A DNA stretch of 42,036 bases from a virus, in the IMG/VR virus record IMGVR_UViG_3300036886_000515, positions 1 to 42,036 of that record. One strand, given 5' to 3'. A program made the translations under genes and the position numbers. The first letter of the stretch is position 1. Every line of letters begins with the position of its first letter. This document shows, piece by piece, positions 1-42,036 of the stretch. The notes below the pieces were generated by a model. It did not search any database and was not told the origin of the DNA. It saw nothing but the letters and a program-made list of their open reading frames with translations.

Positions 1-1395
1 CGGCACTGCTACCTTGGCCTCGGTCAGCAGACGCGGTCCACCGACTTCGATGCTCTTGCCGTTTACGAGTGCACGTGCCCCTCGACCGGACAGCGCTTCG
101 AAGTCGGCAGCCTGCAACGTGGGCAGGTTTCGGCGCTTGGCTTCGGCCACGATTGCTTTAGCGAGCGGGTGTTCGGAGGTGGCTTCGACGGCAGCAGCGT
201 GGGCCAGCAAATCATTCTCGCTGCTGCCAGGCGCAGCCGCGACTCCCGACAATGCAGGAGACCCGCGCGTGAGCGTTCCGGTCTTATCGAAAATCACCAT
301 GTCCAGATTGCGGGCGCGTTCGAGTGCGAGTCTGTCCTTGACGAGGAGGCCGTTCTGCGCGCCGAGCGATGTCGAGATGGCAATTACGAGCGGAATCGCC
401 AATCCTAGGGCGTGTGGGCAAGCAATGATGAGTACGGTTGCCGTCCTGATCAGGGCGTGCTCTTTGTCTCCTGAAAACCACCAGTATGTGAACGTGATCG
501 CGCCAGACGCGACGGCCACGTAGAAAAGGAGTGCCGCGGCACGATCGGCGAGGGCTTGCGTGCGAGAACCGGAAGCTTGTGCAGCAGCAACGAGCCGCAT
601 GATGCCGGACAGAGCGGTCTGCTCTCCGACTGCCGTGACGCGGATTTGAAGGCTTCCACCACCGGCGACTGTCCCCGCGGTAACGGCGGCGCCTGGTCCT
701 TTCGGGACCGTCCGGGACTCACCGGTAATCATCGACTCGTCAACGTCGGCAGATCCCTCGGTGACTGTCCCATCCGCCGGGACGCGGGTTCCGGGCCGAA
801 CGAGGATAATGTCGCCCATCTTCAACTCAGAAAGGGGAACGGTTCGAGTCTCCGCACCGCCTACGAGTTCGGCAGTGTCTGGAAGCAGCGCGGCGAGCGC
901 ATCGAGCGCGCCACGAGCCTGGGAAATTGCTCGCATTTCCAGCCAATGGCCGAGGAGCATGATCGTAATCAGAGATGCGAGTTCCCACCAGACTTCGATC
1001 TCGAAGAGGCCGAAAGTTGCGGCGAGCGACGTACCAAAGGCAACCGTAATCGCCAGGCTGATGAGGGTCATCATGCCGGGCTTGCGGTCCGCCAGTTCGC
1101 CCCATGCCCCACGGATGAAAACGAGGCCACCGTAAACGAAGACCACCGTTCCAAGGATTGGGGCGATTAGTTTGGAGCCGGGGAAAGAAGGTGCTGTGTA
1201 TCCAAGCCAGTGTTGGACATCGGTCGACCAGAAGATCACTGGAATTGTGAGAGCAAAGCTCAACCAAAACTTGTCACGAACCATCGCCACAGAGTGCCCT
1301 GAGTGGCGCTCGTGGCTCCCGTGGTCTTCCGCCATCTTGTGGCCCGCAAGGGCGTCGGCCGTTTCCCCGTGCGCTCCGTGTGTCATTTGCTCCAT
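1..1395 (-). CDS. copB: Copper-translocating P1B-type ATPase, C-terminally cut by window edge
   Basis: Heavy-metal P-type ATPase that would export copper or a related metal across the inner membrane. Reading leftward, 465 codons are visible: a Met/His-rich N-terminus, hydrophobic helices, the actuator loop with an ITGES motif, the transmembrane CPH motif (about residue 324) typical of the CopB subgroup rather than the CPC of CopA, the phosphorylation site DKTGTLT (about residue 369) and the SEHPLA nucleotide-binding motif. The GDGxND hinge and last two helices lie beyond the window. ATG at 1395 is preferred because GGAG lies 6 bases upstream; an in-frame ATG at 1446 has no such site. The His/Met-rich leader has no classical HMA domain. 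It lies outside the tRNA-end remnant and so is read as chromosomal flank. Confidence 0.93.
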   Translation of the reverse strand, partial: MEQMTHGAHGETADALAGHKMAEDHGSHERHSGHSVAMVRDKFWLSFALTIPVIFWSTDVQHWLGYTAPSFPGSKLIAPILGTVVFVYGGLVFIRGAWGELADRKPGMMTLISLAITVAFGTSLAATFGLFEIEVWWELASLITIMLLGHWLEMRAISQARGALDALAALLPDTAELVGGAETRTVPLSELKMGDIILVRPGTRVPADGTVTEGSADVDESMITGESRTVPKGPGAAVTAGTVAGGGSLQIRVTAVGEQTALSGIMRLVAAAQASGSRTQALADRAAALLFYVAVASGAITFTYWWFSGDKEHALIRTATVLIIACPHALGLAIPLVIAISTSLGAQNGLLVKDRLALERARNLDMVIFDKTGTLTRGSPALSGVAAAPGSSENDLLAHAAAVEATSEHPLAKAIVAEAKRRNLPTLQAADFEALSGRGARALVNGKSIEVGGPRLLTEAKVAVP

Positions 1396-1514
1396 ATTGA
1401 ACTCCGATGCCAATCCACCTGGACGAGAAACGGGCAAACCGGACATGTGGCCGCTACGAATCTAAGGGGAGGGCCTTGTTACAGGCCCTTGGCTGAAAAC
1501 AAGAATTAAGAAAA

Positions 1515-2660: not shown

Positions 2661-2917
2661 ATCCGTATCAGCTTCGTATCACCGTTCCGCCGAAAACTTT
2701 CGGCGTGGAAATAAGCTATCGCCCTTTGCTAGCGTGGGTTACCGGTTCACCACCCCGCCCTCGTCCCGACTCGGGTATCTTCCGACTACTTGCTCCTACC
2801 GTTCACAAGTTGCTTATCTGCACCGCCGGAAGATACCCGAGTCGCCGCTACCGCTGGCGAGGGTCGCTAGCGCTCGGGGTGGTGACCAGTTGTGAGGAGG
2901 TGACCGGTGCTCCCTGA
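2657..2917 (+). CDS. Small unknown protein overlapping a long inverted repeat
   Basis: 86 codons beginning at an ATGA overlap with the preceding stop, with AGGAGAG just upstream, so initiation is well supported. The first 27 residues look like an ordinary protein; the rest is encoded by the nested inverted repeat at 2747-2885 and is low in recognisable structure, rich in Arg, Pro and Gly. The ORF may therefore be a short peptide or a gene truncated by the arrival of the repeat. Its 3' end overlaps the start of the ATPase gene at 2907 by 11 bases, which would couple the two. Confidence 0.4.
   Translation: MNPYQLRITVPPKTFGVEISYRPLLAWVTGSPPRPRPDSGIFRLLAPTVHKLLICTAGRYPSRRYRWRGSLALGVVTSCEEVTGAP
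2747..2885. repeat. 139-bp nested inverted repeat, candidate oriT or regulatory cruciform
   Basis: Three pairs of arms are nested around one centre. The inner pair is a perfect 17-bp match (2768-2784 with 2827-2843, GACTCGGGTATCTTCCG). A 6-bp pair CCCTCG/CGAGGG lies at 2758-2763 and 2858-2863, and an 11-bp pair TCACCACCCCG/CGGGGTGGTGA at 2747-2757 and 2875-2885. The 42-base central loop contains a further ACTTG/CAAGT pair. It ends 21 bases before the TraG-like gene. Long inverted repeats beside mobilisation genes are typical of origins of transfer, but a transcription or translation attenuator is equally possible. Confidence 0.6.
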
Positions 2918-4442
2918 GTGGTTCAACTACCGTACCCATGCGGTTGCCAAAGGAACGACGCAATCCGGCAAAAGCAAGTTTGCCGAACACTGTATGAGGG
3001 AGCACGTCCTCCAAGCAAACGGCTTCTGCCTTCTTGACTGGCACGGCACCCTCTACGACGGCATTCTGGAATATCTCGCGTACCTCCGGCCGCAGCAGCC
3101 CGTGATCCTCATCAACCCTTCCCAGCCGGATTTCATCACCCCGTTCAACCCCTTCAGGCTGGTGGAGCCGGACGAGGTCACCGCGCACGCCGGCCGACTT
3201 GCCGATGTCCTCGTCAAAAGCTGGGGCGCCGCGAACACGAACGAGCTCCCGACCTACGAGCGGGTCGTGAAGATGGTCATTACTTTCGCCGCCGTCTCCG
3301 GGGAACCCCTCCACCATTGCGCCCGGCTCCTCGAAATGCCGAAGAAGGAGCACCGGGAATATGCCATCTCCATCATCGAGGACGATTACATCAAGCAGCA
3401 GTGGAAGCAGCTTCAGTACATCAAAAGCTTCAAAGATTGGGTCCACGAGGTGCAATCCACCCAGAACCGCCTTGCCCGGTTTGTCGGCTCAAAGGGCGTC
3501 AAGCTCTTCACTGGGCTTCCCGGTGAAGGGCTCCGCGTGGACGATGCCATTGAACGCGGGGCCATCCTCCTCGTTAACCTGAAGCCATCCGGCAACCTCT
3601 CGGCAGAATCCGGCAAGGTCTTTGCCGGACTCCTCCTCTCCGAATTCCTGAATGCCGCTTTGAGGCATACCGACCGCGAACGGCCCTATTTCTTATATTG
3701 CGACGAAGCCCAGAATTACCTCACGCCGGATGCTGCCGGTATCCTTGACCAGGTGGTGAAGGCAGGGTTGCGCGTCACCCTCCTCCACCACCACGAGGGA
3801 CAGTTCTACGGCAACGTGCCGCTCATTGAATCCATCCGCACGAACGCGCGGATCAAACTCATCTTTGGGGGACTAACTCCCGCAGCCGCGAAGGAATCGG
3901 CGGAGGAACTCTTCCTTCCTGAATTGAACGAACGCTGGAAAAAGGACGACAAGGTCCATTACATCACGCAATACGACGAGGAACAGTACGAGACCATAAC
4001 GGACAGCAGTACATCTTCTTCCAGCTCCGGCACGATTGGGGAAACGGAGACTCAAAGCTCCGGCGACGGCTCCTCACATTCCGTGCAATACGGGAGCCGC
4101 CTCCGCCCTCGCGTTGAGCGCATCGTGGACGGGCAGGAGGACTGGAGCCATGAGGAGAAAATATCCAAGCTCGCCGAGCGCCTCACTGCACTTTCACCGC
4201 GACACTGTTACGTGAAGCTCCCCGACAGGACGTATGCGTGGGAAGTGCCCTGGGTAGAGCCGGTCTTGCTATCCCCTGATACGGTTCTAGAATTTATAAA
4301 AACCATCCCATCCACCCCACTCCATGAGGCAGAAGAAATCATTAGACAGGAGGAAGCCCGTTTCCTTAAACGGACAAATGAGTATGAGCGTGGCGGCAGT
4401 CGCCCCAAAAAGAAACCGCCGACTTTACACCCGCAGCGGTGA
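2907..4442 (+). CDS. TraG/VirD4-like type IV coupling ATPase (soluble)
   Basis: 511-residue P-loop ATPase of the conjugative coupling-protein / HerA group, which moves DNA through a pore or channel by ATP hydrolysis. Walker A is GTTQSGKS (16-23) and Walker B is YFLYCDEAQN (261-270), with a DEAQ arrangement typical of TraG/TraD-like proteins. A Ser-rich linker lies at about 370-395. No N-terminal membrane helices are present, unlike classical VirD4, so it would act in the cytoplasm or through a partner. GTG at 2907 is chosen because GAGGAGGTG lies directly upstream. It is followed by, and overlaps, the Replic_Relax gene and a second ATPase, which together look like a DNA-mobilisation cassette. 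Confidence 0.8.
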   Translation: MLPEWFNYRTHAVAKGTTQSGKSKFAEHCMREHVLQANGFCLLDWHGTLYDGILEYLAYLRPQQPVILINPSQPDFITPFNPFRLVEPDEVTAHAGRLADVLVKSWGAANTNELPTYERVVKMVITFAAVSGEPLHHCARLLEMPKKEHREYAISIIEDDYIKQQWKQLQYIKSFKDWVHEVQSTQNRLARFVGSKGVKLFTGLPGEGLRVDDAIERGAILLVNLKPSGNLSAESGKVFAGLLLSEFLNAALRHTDRERPYFLYCDEAQNYLTPDAAGILDQVVKAGLRVTLLHHHEGQFYGNVPLIESIRTNARIKLIFGGLTPAAAKESAEELFLPELNERWKKDDKVHYITQYDEEQYETITDSSTSSSSSGTIGETETQSSGDGSSHSVQYGSRLRPRVERIVDGQEDWSHEEKISKLAERLTALSPRHCYVKLPDRTYAWEVPWVEPVLLSPDTVLEFIKTIPSTPLHEAEEIIRQEEARFLKRTNEYERGGSRPKKKPPTLHPQR

Positions 4443-5205
4443 TTCCGGCATTTTGCAGGACGTTGCAAAGTACCAGTTCGTCACCGTGGAGATGGTCGCG
4501 GAGGACCTCGCGCGGAACATCATCGCCGTCCGCCGGCGCATGATGCAGCTCTACCAGGCGGGCATGTTGAACCGGGTCCGCAGGGATAAGCTCGCCCCGT
4601 ATGTTTATTTCCTTTCGGAGAAAGGTTCCGAGGAGGCGCTGAGGCGCGGACACCTGCATGAACCCCGCTATATCAATTCAAAAAGCCCCCTGCTCGTTTC
4701 GCACGACTTGGAAATCACGATGTTCCACCGCGCCTTGGGGGAGAAGCTACAGGAGGTTGAATGGATTCACCCCGAAGAAGCCAGCTCGTCATACTTTGAG
4801 TGGGAGCAATGGCGCGGAGCCCTGAAGCAGAAAGTGCAGACCGAAGAAGGGGCAGAATCGCTCATCCCTGACGCGCGCTTTATGGTGAACGGCACGACCA
4901 TGTTTCTTGAGATCGTGAAGAGCTACGAATCGGAATACGAGAACGGCGAGTCAAACGTGGAACACAAGATCGGGCTTTATAACCAGTGGTGGAAAGAAGG
5001 AGGGGAGGATTTCCGGGTCTGTTTTGTGCTTCCAACGAAAGCCCGTGTCGCGCATCTTCTTTCAAAGCTTGAGGACCGTTTCCCTTACCGCCGTTTTTAT
5101 TTCACGGACGAGGAAAGTTACCGGAAGAACGTCGTAGGACATATCTGGTGGACGCCCAGGGATTTCCGCGAGGCAACGTATTCCCTTCTTCATGAAAAAC
5201 CCTAA
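4378..5205 (+). CDS. Replication-relaxation (Replic_Relax) family protein
   Basis: Protein of about 275 residues with the Replic_Relax layout: an N-terminal winged helix (VTVEMVAEDLARNIIAVRRR and onward) that would bind DNA, then a C-terminal domain with a PD-(D/E)XK-like pattern (LIPDARF, then FLEIVKS). The family is named from plasmid proteins implicated in replication or relaxation of plasmid DNA, and commonly sits beside TraG/TraD-like ATPases on integrative elements. The start is uncertain: ATG at 4324, 4378 or 4384 are all possible and none has a good SD site; 4378 reduces the overlap with the preceding gene. The ending at 5205 is secure. Confidence 0.75.
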   Translation: MSMSVAAVAPKRNRRLYTRSGDSGILQDVAKYQFVTVEMVAEDLARNIIAVRRRMMQLYQAGMLNRVRRDKLAPYVYFLSEKGSEEALRRGHLHEPRYINSKSPLLVSHDLEITMFHRALGEKLQEVEWIHPEEASSSYFEWEQWRGALKQKVQTEEGAESLIPDARFMVNGTTMFLEIVKSYESEYENGESNVEHKIGLYNQWWKEGGEDFRVCFVLPTKARVAHLLSKLEDRFPYRRFYFTDEESYRKNVVGHIWWTPRDFREATYSLLHEKP

Positions 5206-5272
5206 ACTTAAAGGAATCGCGGTCAACAATTGCGCGGGGCGGGCAGCGGATGCTCCCGCACATACTCCGACT

Positions 5273-5323
5273 CCCCGTCCTCTCTTCGCGTATCCCGCGT
5301 TCCGATGGGGACGGGGACGCGGG
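5273..5323 (+). promoter_or_regulatory. Crossing inverted repeats masking the ribosome-binding region
   Basis: CCCCGTCC (5273-5280) can pair with GGACGGGG (5309-5316), and CCCGCGT (5294-5300) with ACGCGGG (5317-5323). The pairs cross, so they form either a pseudoknot or two alternative hairpins. The right arms end 2 bases before the preferred start codon at 5326 and contain its only G-rich ribosome-binding candidate, suggesting translational control of the second ATPase. Confidence 0.4.
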
Positions 5324-5325
5324 AC

Positions 5326-6621
5326 ATGAATGTAACTATCGGCACTGATTTCAGCACGGGCGACCCGATCGCCATTGACACCTCAAAGCATATAAATCTT
5401 GAAGGGATGTCGGGCGTAGGAAAGTCAACGACGCTTGTCCGGCTTTTTATTGAGCATATCCGCCAGGGAAACGGCGGAGTTTTTATTGATCCTCACGGAG
5501 ACACAGCCGACCAGCTTGCCACCCTTATTCCCAAGGGCCGGATGCGCGATTTCATTTGGATTGATCCCGATGCGACGCATGTACCCGGCCTGAATATCTT
5601 TGACTACGACGATCCGAGGGACAAGGAGCTCGGCGTGGAGAGTTTCATCACCATGATGAAGGCGCTCGCCGGCAGCGCGTGGGGGGATGAGACCGCGAGG
5701 GTTTTGACGAACGCAGCGGATGCGATCGTGGAGCAGACCGACCGCCCGACCGCAATCCCTATCTTCCGCTTTATGGCGGATGATGCCTTCCGTAAAAGTA
5801 TCCTTGCGAAATCAGAGAATCCCCTGCTCCGGATGTTCAAAGAACAGTATGACGACAAGCTCAGGGAGTCGGAGCAGATGAGCAAGTTCAGCCCGCCGAT
5901 CAACAAGGTGGGAAAACTCCTCCGGCCCTCCATCATCCCCATCATCGGACAGCCGAAATCCTTGGATTTCCTGGAGGCGATGAACAGCAAGAAGATCGTG
6001 GTCTGCCGCTTTTCAAAAGGGAGGTTGGGAGAAGAAGTGTCACAGATCCTCGGGTCGCTCGTGGTTTCTATGGTCTCCATCTCCGCATTGAAGCGTGAAC
6101 GGCAAAAGAAGCGCCCACCCTTCATGCTCGTCGCGGATGAGGTCCACAACTTCGTTCATGGAGGAAGGTTCGGCACGTTATTGGCGGAGAGCCGGAAGTA
6201 CGGTATCACGCTCGTCATGGCTTCCCAGGGGATGTACCAGCTTCCCTTCGCGAAGGACATCCAGGCGAATTGCTCCACGCAGATCGTCTTTAATGTTTCT
6301 GGGGAGGACGCCCAGGCGATCGCGGACAACTGGCGCTGGATTGAATACCCGGAGGAGCTGCGGGCTGCGGATATCACCGCCCTTCCCCGGTATGCGTTTT
6401 ATTGCAGGACTTTTGTGGACGACACGCCGATGGTGGTGAAGGCGCGGGCCCTCCAGGTTACGAAGCGCGGCGACGAGGCAAACCCGACAAAACTCATTAA
6501 GAGTTCGCTTGAGCGATGGGGCAAGCGAAAGAAGGAAGTCCTTTTGAGAATCGGGAAATTCCTCTCGGATGGCTCGGTTCGCCCTTCCCACTCACCCTCT
6601 CGGAATCGTGTTCGCGGTTAG
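5326..6621 (+). CDS. TraD/HerA-like type IV secretion system DNA-binding ATPase
   Basis: 431-residue P-loop ATPase. Walker A is GMSGVGKST (27-35), followed by the family motif FIDPHGD (53-59); Walker B is FMLVADEVHNF (266-276), and LVMASQ (296-301) is the expected sensor region before the arginine-rich end. This is the TrwB/TraD/HerA fold used in conjugative DNA transfer and in some defence systems. No membrane helices are seen. An upstream TTG at 5230 would extend the frame, but the intervening bases are low-complexity hairpin DNA, so ATG 5326 (or 5305) is preferred. It differs clearly from the ATPase at 2907, so the module carries two distinct motor proteins around one Replic_Relax protein. 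Confidence 0.8.
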   Translation: MNVTIGTDFSTGDPIAIDTSKHINLEGMSGVGKSTTLVRLFIEHIRQGNGGVFIDPHGDTADQLATLIPKGRMRDFIWIDPDATHVPGLNIFDYDDPRDKELGVESFITMMKALAGSAWGDETARVLTNAADAIVEQTDRPTAIPIFRFMADDAFRKSILAKSENPLLRMFKEQYDDKLRESEQMSKFSPPINKVGKLLRPSIIPIIGQPKSLDFLEAMNSKKIVVCRFSKGRLGEEVSQILGSLVVSMVSISALKRERQKKRPPFMLVADEVHNFVHGGRFGTLLAESRKYGITLVMASQGMYQLPFAKDIQANCSTQIVFNVSGEDAQAIADNWRWIEYPEELRAADITALPRYAFYCRTFVDDTPMVVKARALQVTKRGDEANPTKLIKSSLERWGKRKKEVLLRIGKFLSDGSVRPSHSPSRNRVRG

Positions 6622-8075: not shown

Positions 8076-8999
8076 TTATTCGACAAGGTGCGCTTTCAAG
8101 ACTTTATGACCGGCAGCTTTCAGCCGCTCAATGATCTTGGTTGCCTTTTCATTTCCAGTGTCGTCGTTGTCGAGCGCCACCGTAATCGCGTGAAACGGCC
8201 TCAAGCATTCCTGTTGCGCCGCTGTCATGTCGCTTCCAAGCAGGGAGGCTGCCTGAACCCCGTTCTGAGAGAACCAGAGGACGGCCCAGGGACTTTCTAC
8301 CAGCACCAGTGGCTTCGCCGCATCGCAGTGGTCAAGCCCATACAGGAAGGATTTGACGAGCCCGGACGGCATGAGCCATTTCGGTTCTTGGCCCTCTAGA
8401 GTGGCCCGGCCGATATACCCGACCAGTGCGCCATGCTGGAAAAGCGGGAACACGATGCGCCCGGCCATCGAACCCTTTCCAGGGAAGAACCCGACGCCGA
8501 ACATCGCAGCAGTTTCTTTCGTGATACCCCGCTTCTCAAGGTACTCGCAATAGGCGATGCCCTTGAGTTCAAACGCGAGGGGTTTATTGACGAGCGGAGC
8601 GGGCGAGGTAGGATTGGAAGGTACCACCACGGCACCGCTCCCATTGGGTTTCGTACCATTCGGGGCCGGTGCCATTCCGTTCTGCGGGAACCATTCCAGC
8701 AGTTTCTTTGCCGCATCGAGCGCGGTGTGTGTGCCTTCCATGAGCATCACCAGGTCCAGTACGTCGCCGCCCTTCTTTCCCGAGCCCTTCACGCACGAAT
8801 CGGACTTGCAGCACCACAGGTTCAGTTGCGTGTTGATGCTGAAAGACCCTTTTGATTCCTTTGAAGTGTGGGAGGAAAGGGGACAGTCGCAACGCAGATA
8901 AATGGTGTTCACCTTTCTCGTCGGGACGCCGTAGCGTTGGAGCACGGAGTCAATCGGGATGTCGTGTTTCAGGGTTTTGAAGTCGATCCTAGGGTCCAT
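8076..8999 (-). CDS. DnaG-like primase: CHC2 zinc finger plus Toprim domain
   Basis: 307-residue compact primase that would make RNA primers for phage replication. The N-terminal zinc finger uses C39, H44, C64 and C69 (CPLSSH, then CKSDSC), followed by a Pro/Gly-rich linker (about 105-135). The Toprim core has the catalytic E235 (LVLVESPW) and the DND pair D277/D279 (VALDNDDTG). It is about half the length of bacterial DnaG and lacks a helicase-binding C-terminal domain or fused helicase, and no helicase was recognised elsewhere in the window. A strong SD (AAGGAGG, 6 bases) precedes the ATG, in contrast to the early and structural genes. It is transcribed leftward, opposite to the main phage operons. 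Confidence 0.88.
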   Translation of the reverse strand: MDPRIDFKTLKHDIPIDSVLQRYGVPTRKVNTIYLRCDCPLSSHTSKESKGSFSINTQLNLWCCKSDSCVKGSGKKGGDVLDLVMLMEGTHTALDAAKKLLEWFPQNGMAPAPNGTKPNGSGAVVVPSNPTSPAPLVNKPLAFELKGIAYCEYLEKRGITKETAAMFGVGFFPGKGSMAGRIVFPLFQHGALVGYIGRATLEGQEPKWLMPSGLVKSFLYGLDHCDAAKPLVLVESPWAVLWFSQNGVQAASLLGSDMTAAQQECLRPFHAITVALDNDDTGNEKATKIIERLKAAGHKVLKAHLVE

Positions 9000-22288: not shown

Positions 22289-24796
22289 ATGTCCGTCGTC
22301 TATAGAACAAGTTCTGCCGGAGGAGGCACAAGCGGTACCGGTAACCGGACCTCTACCATCTCCGCTGTCGCGGGCGACCTGCTTCTTGTTTTCGTAAAGT
22401 GGTCCGGCAACGCGGCGACCAACCCGACGTGCACGGACAACCAGTCCGGCACTTATTCTCTCGTCCTCACCGCGCTCAACAACGCAAGCGCGGACATAAT
22501 GGCGATCTTCGTCCGCAACCAGACGGTCGCTTCCACGGCGACCATCACCGTCGCTCCGGTCGTCGGTTCGGGCACCAACACGGCCGGTGAGATCGTTGTC
22601 GTTGCGGGCAGCGGAGCTGCAATCTTCGGCGCGAGCGCGATTCGCGGTTCCGGCAAGCAGGAGAACCAGACGACGGGAGTTCCCACTCCCGTTTTGTCTG
22701 CCGCCGCTTTGACGGGGAATATGACGATTCAGGCGGCTGGTTCCACCACAACTACTGGGTCTGTTCCTAACGCGAGCTGGACGGAGCGTCAAAACGTCAG
22801 CCAAATCACACCTACGACGGTGATTGAAGTGGCCACGAGAGACAGCGGATTCACGGGAACGTCCGCCGCGTACGTATCCATCGCGTCAGCCGTATGGTGC
22901 TCGGCGATTTTAGAAATTGACGGCAGGATTACTTCCTCGCAGACACAGACAGGCAAAGCACGCATCACTATTTCGACCCAGCAAACACAGACAGGAAAAG
23001 TAAGAATATCCAAAACCACTCCGCAGACCCAGACGGGTAAAGCGCGCATCACCGCGACCCCCAGCCAAACTCAGACGGGGAAAATAAGAATCACCGTTGA
23101 TCCCACCCAAACGCAAACAGGGAAGGCCAGCATCATCAAGAAAGTCTTCCCCGTGGATACGGGCGGCACGCTTCTTACGGGCTTGGTTGCATATTACAAA
23201 CTTGAAGATGCCACTGAATATTACGTCGGCGGCGGCACTTACGATTTAACGAACGAGAATACGGTCGCCTTTAACGCCGGTCTTGTAAATAACGCCGCTG
23301 ACGGGGGAAGCGGGAACACCAACAAGGCTCTCAACTTGGCGAACGGCCTCGGCATCAATGGAGGAAACTTCTCCATGTCGATGTGGATTAAATTGGCGAG
23401 CACCATATCGAGCATCACGACGTTCGGAGGTCAGGCATCAAACGGAGGAAGCAATGTCGGGTATGAGTTTGAATACGACGGCACGACACTCACCTTCAAC
23501 CGTTTCCAAAACGGCACCAACGATTTTAACGCGACAGAAACGGTTGCGCTAAGCACAGGCACTTGGTATCACCTCGTCGGGACTTATGACGGGACGACTC
23601 TCAAACTTTATCGGAACAACGTTGCCAAGACGCCATTAACGACCAGCGGGAATGGCGGTTCCGCCCTTACCCAGAAGTTCGTCTTATTCAAGAACCCGAC
23701 AGCCAATGTCCGCTATTTCAGCGGCAAGATTGATGAAGTCGGCGTATGGAGCAAGGCCCTCACCACCACTGAGATCGCCGACCTCTACAACGGCGGGGCA
23801 GGGCAGACGATGGGCTTAGCGGCCATCACAAGCACCCAGACGCAGACCGGAAAATCAAGAATCACGGGCACCACATCCAACACCCAGACGGGGAAAGCGA
23901 GCGTCAAGGGCACGACCTCACAGACACAAACGGGCAAAGCACGGCTCACCCTCACCTCTCCCCAGACCACGACAGGAAAGGCACGCATCACAAAATCAAC
24001 CAGCCAGACGCAAGCCGGCCAGTCACGGCTCACGGTTACGACCCCACAAACACTCACGGGAAAGACACGCATCACCAAATCCCAAACTCAGACGCAGACG
24101 GGGCTTTCGCGGATTACGAAGACCAGCTCCCAGACCATTACGGGCAAGGCGAGAGTTAGTGTAACGACCAGTCAGACACAAACAGGCAAAGCCAACCTCT
24201 CACTACCTCGCACGCAGACAGGCCTCGCCCGCATCACAAAGACACAAACGCAGACGCAAGCCGGAAAATCCCGCGTCACGAAGACACAGAGTCAGACCCA
24301 GGCGGGGCAATCCCGAATCACGGAAACGACCGCGCAGACCCAAACGGGGAAAGCCAACATCCTTACCGGCCAGACAAGTACCCAGACGCAGACCGGTCAA
24401 GCTCGCATCACGGCGACCACCTCGCGCACCCAAACCGGACAGGCACGCATCGCGGAGGCAGGAACACAGACCCAGACGGGGAAAGCGCGGCTCACCATTT
24501 CGACCCAGCAATCCGCGACCGGCAGATCCCGAATTGCGGTAACCACTCCACAAACGCAGACCGGAACAGGAAAGATAGTTTTCGTGAGGACGCAGACCCA
24601 GACCGGCAAAGCACGGATTCTCTTAGTGAAGCAACAGACGCTTACGGGCAAGGCGAGGGTCAAGGTCTTCCCCGCTTTCACCTCGAAATACTCCGCGCGG
24701 GGCACGGCCTTCACGAGCAAGCTCACTCCGCAAGGCACGCAATTCACAGACCGCTATGGACAACAGGGCATAAGGTTCTATCCTAAATACATATAG
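22289..24796 (+). CDS. Tail or surface protein with LamG-like domain and TQTGKARI repeats
   Basis: 835 residues. Residues 1-215 are a beta-rich head; 217-285 hold five repeats of about 13 residues around TQTGKARI; about 296-507 are a concanavalin-like LamG/laminin-G domain (LVAYYKLEDA, MWIKLAS, WYHLVGTYDGTTLKLYRNN, FSGKIDEVGVWSKALT) that would bind sugars; about 515-790 hold roughly 20 further repeats; the end is aromatic and basic. The layout suggests a receptor-binding fibre with the lectin domain set within a repetitive shaft. No SD; starts 4 bases after the preceding stop. Confidence 0.8.
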   Translation: MSVVYRTSSAGGGTSGTGNRTSTISAVAGDLLLVFVKWSGNAATNPTCTDNQSGTYSLVLTALNNASADIMAIFVRNQTVASTATITVAPVVGSGTNTAGEIVVVAGSGAAIFGASAIRGSGKQENQTTGVPTPVLSAAALTGNMTIQAAGSTTTTGSVPNASWTERQNVSQITPTTVIEVATRDSGFTGTSAAYVSIASAVWCSAILEIDGRITSSQTQTGKARITISTQQTQTGKVRISKTTPQTQTGKARITATPSQTQTGKIRITVDPTQTQTGKASIIKKVFPVDTGGTLLTGLVAYYKLEDATEYYVGGGTYDLTNENTVAFNAGLVNNAADGGSGNTNKALNLANGLGINGGNFSMSMWIKLASTISSITTFGGQASNGGSNVGYEFEYDGTTLTFNRFQNGTNDFNATETVALSTGTWYHLVGTYDGTTLKLYRNNVAKTPLTTSGNGGSALTQKFVLFKNPTANVRYFSGKIDEVGVWSKALTTTEIADLYNGGAGQTMGLAAITSTQTQTGKSRITGTTSNTQTGKASVKGTTSQTQTGKARLTLTSPQTTTGKARITKSTSQTQAGQSRLTVTTPQTLTGKTRITKSQTQTQTGLSRITKTSSQTITGKARVSVTTSQTQTGKANLSLPRTQTGLARITKTQTQTQAGKSRVTKTQSQTQAGQSRITETTAQTQTGKANILTGQTSTQTQTGQARITATTSRTQTGQARIAEAGTQTQTGKARLTISTQQSATGRSRIAVTTPQTQTGTGKIVFVRTQTQTGKARILLVKQQTLTGKARVKVFPAFTSKYSARGTAFTSKLTPQGTQFTDRYGQQGIRFYPKYI
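22936..24666 (+). repeat. About 25 degenerate tandem coding repeats (TQTGKARI)
   Basis: Units of roughly 33-45 bases encode variants of TQTGKARI followed by 3-6 variable residues; the LamG domain interrupts the array after five units. Codon choice differs between units, so the array is old or diverges quickly; length changes by recombination remain possible. Confidence 0.8.
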
Positions 24797-34783: not shown

Positions 34784-35506
34784 ATGGAAGGCTTAATGGC
34801 CCACGCGGGCGCAGATAAACTCACCCGCGAACAACTCGTCACCATCCTGCCACCCGAACCAACCGACACTCACAAGCCCATCGCCCACATCGAGCTCGTG
34901 AACTCGCTCCTCGAAACGCTCTCCTTCCGCCACATCAACGTGGTGAAGGACGAGTACGCCGTTTCCCATGACGGCATGAAGCTCTTCGGCGTCATGGAAC
35001 TCGAAACGACGGGGGACGGCTACCGCTTCTCTCTCGGCCTCCGCAACGCGAATGACAAGTCCATGCGGCTCGGCCTCGTGGTCGGTGTCCGCGTCTTCGT
35101 GTGCGACAACCTCGCCTTCAGCGGCGACTTCCAGCCGGTGCTGGCGAAGCACACGAAGCATTTCAACCTCGTGGACGCCCTTGCCGTCGGCATCGACCAG
35201 ATGCAACGCAACTTCAAGCCGATGGGCGAACAGATCGAACGCTGGCGCGCCACGCAGATCCCCGATGAATACGCCCGCCTCTGCATCTACAAGGCGTTCA
35301 TCGAGGACAACCTCGACGCGCCGAAGCATCTGGCGAAGTACGTCCACGAGAACTACTTCCAGCCGCAACTGCCGGACTTCGCCCCGCGCACGAAGTGGAG
35401 TTTGCAGAACGCATTCACCACGGCGTTCAAGGAGCTCGACCCCATCCCCCTCTACCGCGCCACCGCGTCCCTCGGCGCTTTCTTCGACCACGTCAACCTG
35501 AACTGA
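34784..35506 (+). CDS. DUF932-family protein
   Basis: 240 residues of the DUF932 family, found on plasmids, phages and integrative elements; the molecular role is unknown. The core shows the expected pattern (FRHINVVKDEYAVSHDGMKL, FSLGLRNANDKSMRLGL, VFVCDNLAF). The sequence is, by recall, closest to acidobacterial members. AAGGAG lies 8 bases before the ATG, in contrast to the preceding 25 kb. First gene of the accessory block. Confidence 0.8.
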   Translation: MEGLMAHAGADKLTREQLVTILPPEPTDTHKPIAHIELVNSLLETLSFRHINVVKDEYAVSHDGMKLFGVMELETTGDGYRFSLGLRNANDKSMRLGLVVGVRVFVCDNLAFSGDFQPVLAKHTKHFNLVDALAVGIDQMQRNFKPMGEQIERWRATQIPDEYARLCIYKAFIEDNLDAPKHLAKYVHENYFQPQLPDFAPRTKWSLQNAFTTAFKELDPIPLYRATASLGAFFDHVNLN

Positions 35507-36788: not shown

Positions 36789-37928
36789 ATGCCTCGCCTG
36801 GCGACTCCCAAAACAAAACGCAAGATGCAGACCGGAACATACCGGCTAATTGACCTATTCTCGGGAGCGGGCGGCTTGAGCCTCGGCTTCAGCAAGAAAT
36901 TCGGGCACAGGTTCGAATCCGTATGGGCAAACGATTTCGACGAGGATTGCGTGCTGAGTTACAACGAGAACTTCGGCGAGCATTGCGTGCACGGCGACAT
37001 CGTGCAACTCCTCAACGATCGGAACATCAGGATTCCCAAAGCCGATATCGTCATCGGAGGGCCGCCCTGTCAAGGTTTCAGCCTGCTTAACAAGAAGCGG
37101 GGCGACGACCCGCGAAGGGAGCTCTGGCGGCAATATTTCGAAGTCGTCGAGCGTTCCGGAGCGGATATTTTTGTAATGGAGAACGTGCCGCAGATCCTCG
37201 ACTCTTTCGAGCACGGCGAGATCATCGGCGCCGCGAAAACCCTCGGCTTTGAGTTTGTCACGAGCGGCAAGCTCCTCGCGGCCGACTACGGCGTTCCGCA
37301 AATCCGTTCCCGCGCCTTCATCATCGGTTGCAAGTTCGCCGATCCGGCGACTGTCTTTCCGCCCCAAAAGACCAATTACAATCCGAAGAACGGTTACCTG
37401 CCCGGCGTGGCCGGATATGTCAGGAATCCCGACAAATGGGTGACGGTCAAACAGGTCATTGGTAGGCTTCCCGCGCCGCAAGGCACTGAAATTCGCAACG
37501 CCAAACCGCCTCTGGATCTTCACTTCGGCCGGAATCCCACGCCGATGAGCCTCAAGCGATATAAAGCGATCCCTAGAGAGGGCATGAATCGCTTCGATTT
37601 GCAGCGCCGCGCACCTGCAATCACGCCCGGCTGCTGGATTAGAAAGAAGTCCGGAGGCACAGACCTCTTCGGCCGCTTATGGTGGGACCGGCCGGCGTTT
37701 ACGATAAGGACCGAATTCTTCAAGCCGGAAAAAGGCCGCTATCTGCACCCCGAGCAGAACCGCCCGATCACGCACCGGGAAGCCGCTCGCTTCCAAACGT
37801 TCCCCGACGATTTCATCTTCTACGGTTCAAAGATTGAGATCGCAAAACAGATCGGCAATGCGGTTCCGCCACTCCTCGCGTCGGCCGTAGCCGGCTGCAT
37901 CGAGAAGCTCCTAGAATCTCGTAAGTGA
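36789..37928 (+). CDS. dcm: DNA (cytosine-5) methyltransferase
   Basis: 379 residues transferring a methyl group from S-adenosylmethionine to C5 of cytosine in a specific DNA sequence. Motif I DLFSGAGG (22-29) binds the cofactor; motif IV GGPPCQGFS carries the nucleophile C94; motif VI ENVP (131-134), motif VIII QIRSRAF (171-177) and the final RFQTFPDDF ... QIGNAVPP (motifs IX-X) are all intact, with a recognition domain of about 130 residues between VIII and IX. Target sequence unknown. A -10-like TAAACT at 36774-36779 predicts a start at or near the ATG; an internal ATG at 36825 is an alternative. Followed by vsr and an HNH nuclease. Confidence 0.95.
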   Translation: MPRLATPKTKRKMQTGTYRLIDLFSGAGGLSLGFSKKFGHRFESVWANDFDEDCVLSYNENFGEHCVHGDIVQLLNDRNIRIPKADIVIGGPPCQGFSLLNKKRGDDPRRELWRQYFEVVERSGADIFVMENVPQILDSFEHGEIIGAAKTLGFEFVTSGKLLAADYGVPQIRSRAFIIGCKFADPATVFPPQKTNYNPKNGYLPGVAGYVRNPDKWVTVKQVIGRLPAPQGTEIRNAKPPLDLHFGRNPTPMSLKRYKAIPREGMNRFDLQRRAPAITPGCWIRKKSGGTDLFGRLWWDRPAFTIRTEFFKPEKGRYLHPEQNRPITHREAARFQTFPDDFIFYGSKIEIAKQIGNAVPPLLASAVAGCIEKLLESRK

Positions 37929-38350
37929 CCGACGTATTCACCGCCGCCAAGCGAAGTGCCATCATGGCGCGCATTCGCGGCAAAGATACCGCCCCGGAAA
38001 TGACCGTGCGCCGCCTCCTTTTTCACATGGGCTACCGCTTTCGCGTCCATCGGAAAGATTTGCCCGGTTGCCCCGACATTGTCCTCCCGCGCCATCGTGC
38101 CGTCATTCTCGTGAACGGCTGTTTCTGGCACGGACATTCCTGTAAACGCGGCAAACAGCCGACTTCGAACACTGAGTTTTGGACGACCAAAATAGGGAGA
38201 AACAAAACCCGCGATAAGAAGCTCCGTAAGCAGCTTAATTCGTTGGGCTGGCACGTTCTGGTAGTATGGCAATGCCAACTCCAAGACGATCTACAGGACA
38301 GGCTATTTCGCTTTTTACGAGGCGAACAAAGTGGCCAACGAAGCGCCTAA
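37925..38350 (+). CDS. vsr: Very short patch repair endonuclease
   Basis: 141 residues. Vsr nicks DNA beside the T of T:G mismatches that arise when methylated C deaminates, protecting the methyltransferase target. In the numbering from GTG 37925, E25, D51, F67, W68, H69, W86 and D97 match the positions recalled for the E. coli enzyme. The exception is position 64: Asn where E. coli has catalytic His64. Either this subgroup tolerates Asn or activity is altered. GTGA overlap with the methyltransferase gene shows coupling. Confidence 0.93.
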   Translation: MTDVFTAAKRSAIMARIRGKDTAPEMTVRRLLFHMGYRFRVHRKDLPGCPDIVLPRHRAVILVNGCFWHGHSCKRGKQPTSNTEFWTTKIGRNKTRDKKLRKQLNSLGWHVLVVWQCQLQDDLQDRLFRFLRGEQSGQRSA

Positions 38351-38960
38351 AAAGAAGATTAAAAAAGACGCCGCCAAAAAGAAGATCCGGGAATTCCTCA
38401 TCGCCAACGTCGGCAAGAAGGTCACCACCCAACAAATCTCAAAAGTCTCCGGCATCATTGCCCACGCCCGGCGAGTGCGGGAGCTTCGCGACGACGAGGG
38501 AATGCAGATCAGCACCCACAAGGATCGGGACGACCTCAAGCCCGGAGAGTACGTCCTGGAATCCATCGAGAGTAAGCCCGTCGTCGGCGGAGTCTCCTCG
38601 AAACTCCGAAACCAGGTACTTGAGCGAGACGGTTTTACGTGCGTTTTGTGCGGAGCGACTGCCGGCGATCCGAGCGCATATAACCCGAACCGCAAGCTCA
38701 AGCTCCACGTCGATCACAACAAGCCGGGCAGTCAAGAAGGAAAACCCACGCTCGAAAACTTACGAACCTTATGCTCCGACTGCAATCAGGGCCGCCAGAA
38801 CATACAAGCGCCGAGTGAGACAGCACGGAACATCCTCGCCCGGATAAGGCGTCTCCCCCGCGCCGAACAGCGGGAGGTACATAACATCCTGAAGAAATCT
38901 TTCCCCGACGAACAACCGCTTTTGATTCCGATTGAAAAAATACCGGAAAAACCGTCGTAA
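38331..38960 (+). CDS. HNH endonuclease, probable restriction enzyme of the operon
   Basis: 209 residues: a basic N-terminus, a winged-helix domain (30-90; VTTQQISKVSGIIAHARRVR) and a C-terminal HNH domain with CVLCG, LHVDHNKPG and LCSDC. The winged helix plus HNH order occurs in type II restriction enzymes encoded with a cytosine methyltransferase and Vsr. It would cut DNA lacking the methyl mark and so defend the lysogen against other phages. The GTG start at 38331 lies inside the vsr gene with GAGG 8 bases before it. Specificity unknown. Confidence 0.85.
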   Translation: MANEAPKKKIKKDAAKKKIREFLIANVGKKVTTQQISKVSGIIAHARRVRELRDDEGMQISTHKDRDDLKPGEYVLESIESKPVVGGVSSKLRNQVLERDGFTCVLCGATAGDPSAYNPNRKLKLHVDHNKPGSQEGKPTLENLRTLCSDCNQGRQNIQAPSETARNILARIRRLPRAEQREVHNILKKSFPDEQPLLIPIEKIPEKPS

Positions 38961-40831: not shown

Positions 40832-40975
40832 ATGACTGAAGAATCATCAGAATTTCACAAGAGATTGAAGCTCACCGCTCTTTGGGCGCGCGGTTTAGAT
40901 GTTCACTTTCCGATTCCTCTTCCTCCGATCGAAGAAGAAATTAAAACGGCCGACGAGGGATACAACTTCTTTTAA
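40832..40975 (+). CDS. 47-residue unknown protein
   Basis: Reads MTEESSEFHKRLKLTALWAR followed by a Pro-rich stretch (FPIPLPPIEEEI) and ends NFF. Acidic overall. Its 3' end overlaps the integrase 3' end by 4 bases (convergent). No SD (AATAAGAAA precedes the ATG). Could be a small regulator; function unknown. Confidence 0.4.
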   Translation: MTEESSEFHKRLKLTALWARGLDVHFPIPLPPIEEEIKTADEGYNFF

Positions 40976-42036
40976 GCCCAGGTTTTTTTGACGGCAACTT
41001 CAAGCGCATCCTGCCTGCTTTTCACCCACGGCGCGTAGTGCTTTTCGGTTGTCTTAATCGAGTGATGCCCGAGGAGGGTTGAGACCTCTTGTAGTGGCAC
41101 GCCCTTTTCTAAAAGCGACACGGCGAACGTATCCCTGAACCTGTGGCTATGGCCGTCAGGTATCCCGGCGAGTTCAAAGAGCTTTTTCAACCTCGCTTGC
41201 CATTCAGTGATGCACGTCTTCAGCTTTCCCACGCCCGGATAGAAAAATCGGCCGTCGCCGTCATCCACCCCTTCCAACGTCTTCAGGATTTCCTTCGGTA
41301 AGGGCAGCATCACCGGATGACCCGTCTTTGCCTGGTAGAGAAAGAGCCGACCTTTTGTATCAATCCGTTCGCCCCGGAGCGTGACAGCGTCGGAGATCCT
41401 CAGCCCCGAATACCGCATGAGGAGGACGAGCGCGCGCATCTTTTTTACCAGGCGCTCGGGAACCTTCGGATGGATTTCCCGGAAGGTATCAAGCGCAATC
41501 GTGATGTTTTTCCATTCCTCGTCCGAGAACGGCATCGTTGGACTGAACGACGCTTTCGGCAGCCGGACGGTCTTCGCCGGATTCCCCTGCACCCACCCGC
41601 CATCGGAACAGAACCTAAAGAACGTCCGCAGTCGCTCCAACTTCTTGCTTGCGGTGATCGGCGCGAGCTTCCACCCCTCCCGGTATTTCCGAAGCTCATC
41701 AACTGTGATGCGCCGGACGGCGACGGCACCGAATAACTCCGTCAGCTCGTCTGTGAGGAGTTTGTATTTTCCCTTCTGTGCCGCCCCGAGACCCCGCGCC
41801 TCGCAGTCTTTTGTGAATCGCTCGCACGCCTCCTTCACCGTGAGAGCGTTCGCTTCCCCGTGTATTTCCAGGTCTCTAATGCGGGTTTGCGCGGCCTCCC
41901 ACGACGTGAGATCGAGCGCCCGGCGGACAGACTTCCCTTCCAAAGTCCCCTGGACCCATATCGGGCAGAAACATCCCCGATGCCGCCGAGAGCGGTGTTT
42001 ACAGGTGCTTCGATGGCGCCGGTATGCCGTGAGCAT
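40972..42036 (-). CDS. Tyrosine recombinase (phage integrase)
   Basis: 354 residues that would join and excise the element at its attachment sites. The catalytic set is complete: R213 (SGLRISDA), K237 (YQAKTGH), H298-x2-R301 (HSHRFRDT), H324/H325 (LGHHS) and the nucleophile Y334 (EKHYAPW). The N-terminus has a Cys/His/Arg-rich segment (CKHRSRRHRGCFCPIWVQG) of a kind recalled from acidobacterial integrases, followed by a SAM-like core-binding domain (about 64-150). The ATG is the last base of the window, so an earlier start or upstream sequence cannot be excluded, although MLTAYRRH is the usual beginning of this family. Confidence 0.93.
   Translation of the reverse strand: MLTAYRRHRSTCKHRSRRHRGCFCPIWVQGTLEGKSVRRALDLTSWEAAQTRIRDLEIHGEANALTVKEACERFTKDCEARGLGAAQKGKYKLLTDELTELFGAVAVRRITVDELRKYREGWKLAPITASKKLERLRTFFRFCSDGGWVQGNPAKTVRLPKASFSPTMPFSDEEWKNITIALDTFREIHPKVPERLVKKMRALVLLMRYSGLRISDAVTLRGERIDTKGRLFLYQAKTGHPVMLPLPKEILKTLEGVDDGDGRFFYPGVGKLKTCITEWQARLKKLFELAGIPDGHSHRFRDTFAVSLLEKGVPLQEVSTLLGHHSIKTTEKHYAPWVKSRQDALEVAVKKTWA

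Follow-up and report, generated by a model that had tools for sequence, protein, structure and literature searches.

A putative MOBC-type mobilisation module with a co-inherited oriT-like site in a lineage of temperate Acidobacteria phages

As routes of gene spread, phages are usually treated apart from conjugative elements. For P1-like elements, intact phages that carry both a relaxase and an origin of transfer (oriT) have been described as rare exceptions: only two intact P1-like phage-plasmids have a relaxase or oriT, and these functions occur mainly in derivatives that have lost phage functions (PMC10879196). MOBC relaxases are characterized by the Replic_Relax domain (PF13814) (PMC5357655), and the MOBC site of plasmid pAD1 comprises a nic region with five direct repeats located 70-120 bp away (PMC12857230). 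Here we analyze a three-gene cassette, encoding ATPase A, a Replic_Relax protein and ATPase B in this order (2907-6621), and the oriT-like nested inverted repeat that precedes it in virus record IMGVR_UViG_3300036886_000515. The window analyzed is the whole record (42,036 bases, one strand), and relatives of the phage it contains sit in genomes of soil Acidobacteria. The original prediction had placed two different coupling-protein-like ATPases around a Replic_Relax protein, and all three open reading frames (ORFs) and their family matches were confirmed here, but it had missed the inverted repeat at 2747-2885. We are fairly confident that the cassette constitutes a MOBC-type module, composed of a DNA site, a relaxase homologue and a coupling-type ATPase.

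The Replic_Relax protein of the window matches PF13814 with a score above the curated cutoff, as do most of its relatives, and the TraX homologue of the pAD1-like plasmid pTEF1 matches the same model. Work by Francia in 2013 reportedly identified D152, E170, E172, K176 and Y181 as mutated or important TraX residues, and the pTEF1 TraX sequence carries these residues at the expected positions. In the phage homologues, D157, E179, K198 and Y202 (numbering of the relative L004) are among the positions invariant in 13/13 sequences, and the second acidic residue (TraX E172) is kept in 11/13. The K-x3-Y pair is invariant in the helix that follows the acidic residues, its correspondence to TraX K176/Y181 being ambiguous in the alignment. 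An AlphaFold model of L004, with a mean predicted local distance difference test (pLDDT) of 82.7, places a winged helix ahead of a helix-strand-strand-strand-helix-strand arrangement; in the model, D157 opens the second strand, E179 lies in the third, and K198 and Y202 fall in the next helix. This modeled topology fits a winged helix joined to a PD-(D/E)XK-like fold. Searches with the relaxase homologue as query against phage and plasmid collections returned no match.

From their sequences, both ATPases are predicted to have the conserved TrwB-type P-loop domain that binds nucleotides. ATPase A alone gave no Pfam match; its family profile (A3) matches TrwB (1e9r) with an E-value of 9.5e-8, and further matches were obtained to phrog_5156 (8e-20) and, using hhalign, to the coupling protein of pTEF1 (E 1.6e-7). 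Its Walker A and B motifs are intact. ATPase B is approximately 70% identical in the closest relatives. ATPases of known phages share about 21-26% identity with the window. The true start of ATPase B is probably 5305 or 5326, because relatives start there (alignment A1).

The element preceding the cassette has 11-bp outer arms (TCACCACCCCG, 2747-2757; CGGGGTGGTGA, 2875-2885) and perfect 18-bp inner arms (2767-2784 and 2827-2844) separated by a loop of 42 bases. CTANCG motifs are located at 2796, 2848 and 2867, and most elements contain 3-6 copies of this motif, against about 0.1 expected. The window element is the sole inverted repeat with arms of at least 13 bp (loop of at most 90) in the 42 kb, and equivalent elements were identified in 18 records, plus prophage G269. 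The longest arm in shuffled sequences reached at most 9-15 bp, versus 11-65 bp in the relatives; the inverted repeat is far beyond chance. Covariation in the stems was counted on eight well-aligned sequences of one site type, the 15-sequence alignment across both types being too poor for a consensus fold, and revealed 25 double changes and no one-sided change, with 98.2% of cells paired, compared to 33-54% when the partner was slid. The raw tally of 297/305 Watson-Crick pairs is biased by the picking of arms and was not used as proof. A covariance model built from the same eight sequences, with the window left out, recovered 2745-2886 at an E-value of 7.5e-7 in 1.1 Mb, and in general reports one place per phage. 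Over 396 Acidobacteria genomes, it identified only the prophage G013 and one new place, which corresponds to prophage G269. In the contig G014 (L057, 14203-14402), the element lies within a perfect 65-bp inverted repeat with a 65-base loop, which could be real or an assembly artefact.

In most relatives, the element sits about 20-60 bp ahead of the first gene of the operon, a position that would suit an RNA leader or attenuator with structure of its own instead of a DNA site. We regard such an RNA as improbable: variation in the arms proceeds from one Watson-Crick pair to another, with no one-sided G-U intermediates, the element of G269 is found next to the primase, across the cassette and not ahead of the ATPase operon, and a comparison of the element with Rfam gave no match.

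To characterize the distribution of the module, relatives were gathered through ATPase B scans, which identified related virus contigs and three Acidobacteria metagenome-assembled genome contigs, capsid and portal searches, and profile searches. In 17 virus or prophage sequences (G000, G001, G003-G006, G008-G010, G013, G269, G423, G425, G430 and G432-G434), phage structural genes accompany ATPase A, the relaxase homologue and ATPase B arranged in this order; two further contigs with the cassette, G014 and G015, break off ahead of where structural genes would lie and fall outside this count. The cassette is carried by two unrelated structural modules: type I, present in the window, with terminase phrog_2 and head protein phrog_267, and type II, with terminase phrog_38, portal phrog_2662 and head protein phrog_10. 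In two relatives, both ends of the prophage are visible: G013 (52.1 kb) is bounded by 23-bp attachment repeats, one of which is the end of an intact tRNA-Met gene, and G269 (40.1 kb) by 21-bp repeats that look like the 3' end of a tRNA. With two relatives integrated in chromosomes, and an integrase and bacterial flank in the window, these are not the extrachromosomal lysogens that define phage-plasmids. A mobilisable element that captured a phage, one of the options originally considered, does not describe their present state either, given that the cassette is found with two unrelated full structural modules and in tRNA-integrated prophages.

The site core reads either GGGTA (once AGGTA) or GGGCA. 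When mapped as a label, these two site types require a single change each on the ATPase A and relaxase trees (support 100/100 and 100/99), whereas they require four on the ATPase B tree, for which no bootstrap tree accommodates one. Both labels are found with both structural modules. The site label thus divides the trees of ATPase A and the relaxase without exception, which it fails to do for ATPase B, and the site, ATPase A and the relaxase form a travelling unit to which neither ATPase B nor the capsid genes belong. Linkage accounts for part of this co-inheritance, yet ATPase B also directly neighbours the relaxase gene.

It was also proposed originally that the cassette is a defence module in which HerA-like ATPases and a nuclease-like partner shield the lysogen from other phages. 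PADLOC mad8 and HerA profiles do match the ATPases, and the modeled topology of the relaxase homologue is nuclease-like, but the profile matches are at superfamily level only, no defence profile matched the partner protein or the neighbour scanned, and the cassette is a constant of the lineage instead of variable cargo. Defence would moreover leave the co-inherited DNA site unexplained, and we deem it very unlikely.

All records of the lineage that reach well past the primase carry the cassette. Among phages of the same structural type, five records seemingly devoid of it (G411, G413, G415, G419 and G427) all end within ~1.1 kb of the primase, and most of them also stop near the integrase at the other end. 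They were probably trimmed, as if software had removed the module, and because they end near the primase they are uninformative rather than counter-examples. The presence count hence fits equally a module that is always present and one that is trimmed when present, and we do not claim universality. This suggests that automatic trimming of prophages truncates related records exactly here, which would conceal the module from surveys. A search for prophages in 397 related genomes using capsid profiles detected only G013. Among more distant relatives, phages G012, G439 and G442 retain ATPases and a relaxase homologue, and the 60-kb G440 has no part of the cassette. In some relatives (G010, 43426-44793; G009, 46304-47701) a ParB-like protein adjoins the cassette, which suggests a partition function in part of the lineage.

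The original prediction regarded a three-gene order found always and only with phage packaging genes as the mark of a plain phage function. Such an association is seen in the close relatives, but it does not extend to distant ones, since distant cassette homologues on the integrated element G304 adjoin a plasmid-type RPA replication initiator and a primase, and G304 yielded none of the phage markers searched for. Because of the oriT-like site, association with packaging genes alone would in any case not make this a plain phage function. The module may derive from a G304-like element, because distant relatives of the cassette sit on G304, where no phage marker was found.

Taken together, we lean towards helper-dependent mobilisation of this temperate Acidobacteria phage lineage as the main use of the module. 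Among the options first advanced, the MOBC-type relaxase, the coupling-type ATPase, the oriT-like site and the lack of channel genes favour that of a phage which a conjugation system of the host can also mobilise. On this last point the initial claim also held: VirB4 (PF03135) was found in none of nine virus records (the window and eight related ones), other channel genes not having been searched individually. Under this model, the winged-helix, nuclease-fold protein would bind the site at 2747-2885 and nick one strand, and the ATPase A motor, made in many relatives beside a membrane protein, would bring the nicked strand to the membrane, where the type IV channel of a resident conjugative element could pass the phage genome to another cell. 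ATPase B, more conserved and separately inherited, would act as a second motor, with second-strand synthesis falling to the neighbouring primase. Mobilisation and nick-initiated replication are compatible, and the nick might serve additionally to launch replication of the phage genome after excision.

Several observations weigh against this model. The phage already has capsids and hence no need of conjugation. The window relaxase has V in place of the second acidic residue, the relaxase profile aligned directly with TraX over the winged helix alone, and a Foldseek search with the relaxase model retrieved winged-helix proteins only and no PD-(D/E)XK structure. The N-terminal transmembrane domain typical of VirD4/TrwB is also missing, with no clear helix in window ATPase A or B, and in the CloDF13 coupling protein the transmembrane domain is essential (PMC7431656). 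Such a domain is typical rather than universal, coupling proteins without one having been listed (PMC7431656). The absence of membrane helices noted originally thus stands for the window but not for the lineage: at least nine relatives have a membrane protein of one to three helices encoded by an ORF that overlaps the start of ATPase A or lies just ahead of it, and the ATPase-A-like protein of the distant relative G012 has two N-terminal helices of its own. As the window ATPases lack a membrane domain, we refer to a coupling-type ATPase and not to a VirD4 coupling protein. As for a helper, VirB4 occurs elsewhere in 3/4 host genomes versus 122/298 in the order (41%), a difference that is not significant. 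Two of the three sampled hosts (G013 C59 and G015 C93) are among the 7/298 genomes with a strong VirB4 match (E < 1e-14), a post hoc observation that points to a possible helper. Finally, the presence of the cassette in every record extending well past the primase is the pattern expected of a core function such as replication.

Replication is accordingly the chief rival explanation. The relaxase homologue would here nick the hairpin as an initiator of rolling-circle or strand-displacement replication, with the ATPases and primase as helicase and priming partners and no conjugation involved. Besides its constancy, the cassette adjoins a primase, the window proteins scanned included no recognisable DnaB-type helicase and no other initiator (there was one weak helicase-loader match), a single-copy hairpin with iteron-like repeats suits an origin equally well, and Bacillus phages with Replic_Relax genes have been so read in print (PMC9658697, PMC7685451). 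We nonetheless consider replication alone rather unlikely, as the ATPases are coupling-protein-like and not helicase-like, a membrane protein often adjoins ATPase A, and the site is laid out like a MOBC transfer origin. The Bacillus phage Bolokhovo is no real precedent, because its Replic_Relax protein has only 92 amino acids and the phage has its own DnaB and polymerase.

The acidic residue missing from the window relaxase, together with the reduction of the primase to a zinc finger in several relatives, could alternatively reflect the decay, within these prophages, of a mobilisation region acquired by capture. This appears highly improbable, with the ORFs intact in 17 records, the Walker motifs intact, the D, E, K and Y residues kept, and both stems maintained by compensating changes.

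A lineage with a constant module and a covarying, co-inherited DNA site provides a concrete case of a virus that is possibly also mobilisable. As a broader and more tentative proposal, a widely distributed temperate lineage that integrates into chromosomes might keep a complete, co-inherited MOBC relaxosome (site, relaxase and coupling motor) as a core block while exchanging unrelated capsid modules, and spread both by particles and by conjugation through helper channels.

The features of the window are listed in Table 1. The prophage is flanked over the first 1.4 kb (1-1446, minus strand) by a bacterial gene for a copper-type (metal) P-type ATPase; the tRNA 3'-end-like sequence that follows this gene at ~1515 (TGGTGCCGGAAGGGGGAGTC, minus strand) may be the left attachment site. 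Because the last base (42036) is the integrase start codon, the record represents a prophage cut at one end. The description of a complete phage therefore needs amending: terminase, portal and major head protein were confirmed, but the record is cut at one end and bacterial at the other. Some phages have a full-length primase, with both zinc finger and toprim, and others only its zinc-finger part. Other proteins include an 835-amino-acid tail-region protein (22289-24796) with many QTQTGKARIT-like motif repeats and a laminin-G-like domain, a DUF932 protein (34784-35506) with 52-68% identity across phages of either structural module, and, close to the right end, a C5 cytosine methyltransferase (36789-37928) and an HNH endonuclease (38331-38960).

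Table 1. Coordinates of the cassette, its oriT-like site and other features of the window.
Feature	Position	Strand	Remarks
oriT-like nested inverted repeat	2747..2885	+	ATPase A begins 22 bp downstream
ATPase A, coupling-protein (TrwB/VirD4)-like P-loop ATPase, 511 amino acids	2907..4442	+	GTG start after GAGGAGGTGA
Replic_Relax protein, MOBC-type relaxase homologue (winged helix and predicted PD-(D/E)XK-like domain)	4324..5205	+	PF13814 4.3e-9
ATPase B, TraG/TrwB-like ATPase	5230..6621	+	TrwB_AAD_bind 4.2e-8, TraG-D_C 3.8e-6 (Pfam, above cutoffs)
Membrane-anchored protein, one N-terminal helix	7099..8052	+	no match in family searches; in the G013 prophage, its homologue immediately precedes ATPase A
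DnaG-like primase, zinc finger and toprim	8076..8999	-	PF13155, PF08275, phrog_47; adjoins cassette in nearly all relatives
Tyrosine integrase	40972..42036	-	PF00589 8e-21; far end of prophage; record stops at its start codon

Among phages, Bolokhovo and the other Bacillus phages Izhevsk and Kirov resemble the window in being annotated with Replic_Relax and FtsK-like genes (PMC9658697, PMC7685451). The deep-sea thermophilic phage D6E likewise encodes a TraG-like ATPase, there beside an integrase and a ParM-like gene, and no nested repeat was found near that ATPase.

The TraX/oriT2 system of pTEF1 (pAD1 family) shares with the phage module a Replic_Relax protein with a winged helix and the D and E residues, a nested repeat accompanied by direct repeats, and an adjoining coupling-protein gene. 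In pTEF1, a 25-bp inverted repeat with a 27-base loop and 17-bp outer arms lies at 0.6 kb from traX, immediately next to the gene for the coupling protein, and a series of direct repeats comes after it. We take this repeat to be oriT2 from its position and from the description in PMC12857230. The phage element has the layout of the pTEF1 repeat, with an unrelated sequence. The pTEF1 family nevertheless consists of full conjugative plasmids with channel genes, whereas the phage has none, carries two soluble ATPases, and shows low sequence identity. The CloDF13 MobB-MobC system (MOBC1), compared by description only, is closer in lifestyle, being mobilisable with its own coupling protein and MOBC relaxase and in need of a helper channel (PMC7431656), but its MobB has an essential membrane domain and it carries no phage genes. 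P1-like phage-plasmids that turned into mobilisable plasmids likewise represent a phage lineage meeting an oriT and a relaxase (PMC10879196). Unlike in those plasmids, the module described here is constant in phages that have full structural genes and integrate into the chromosome.

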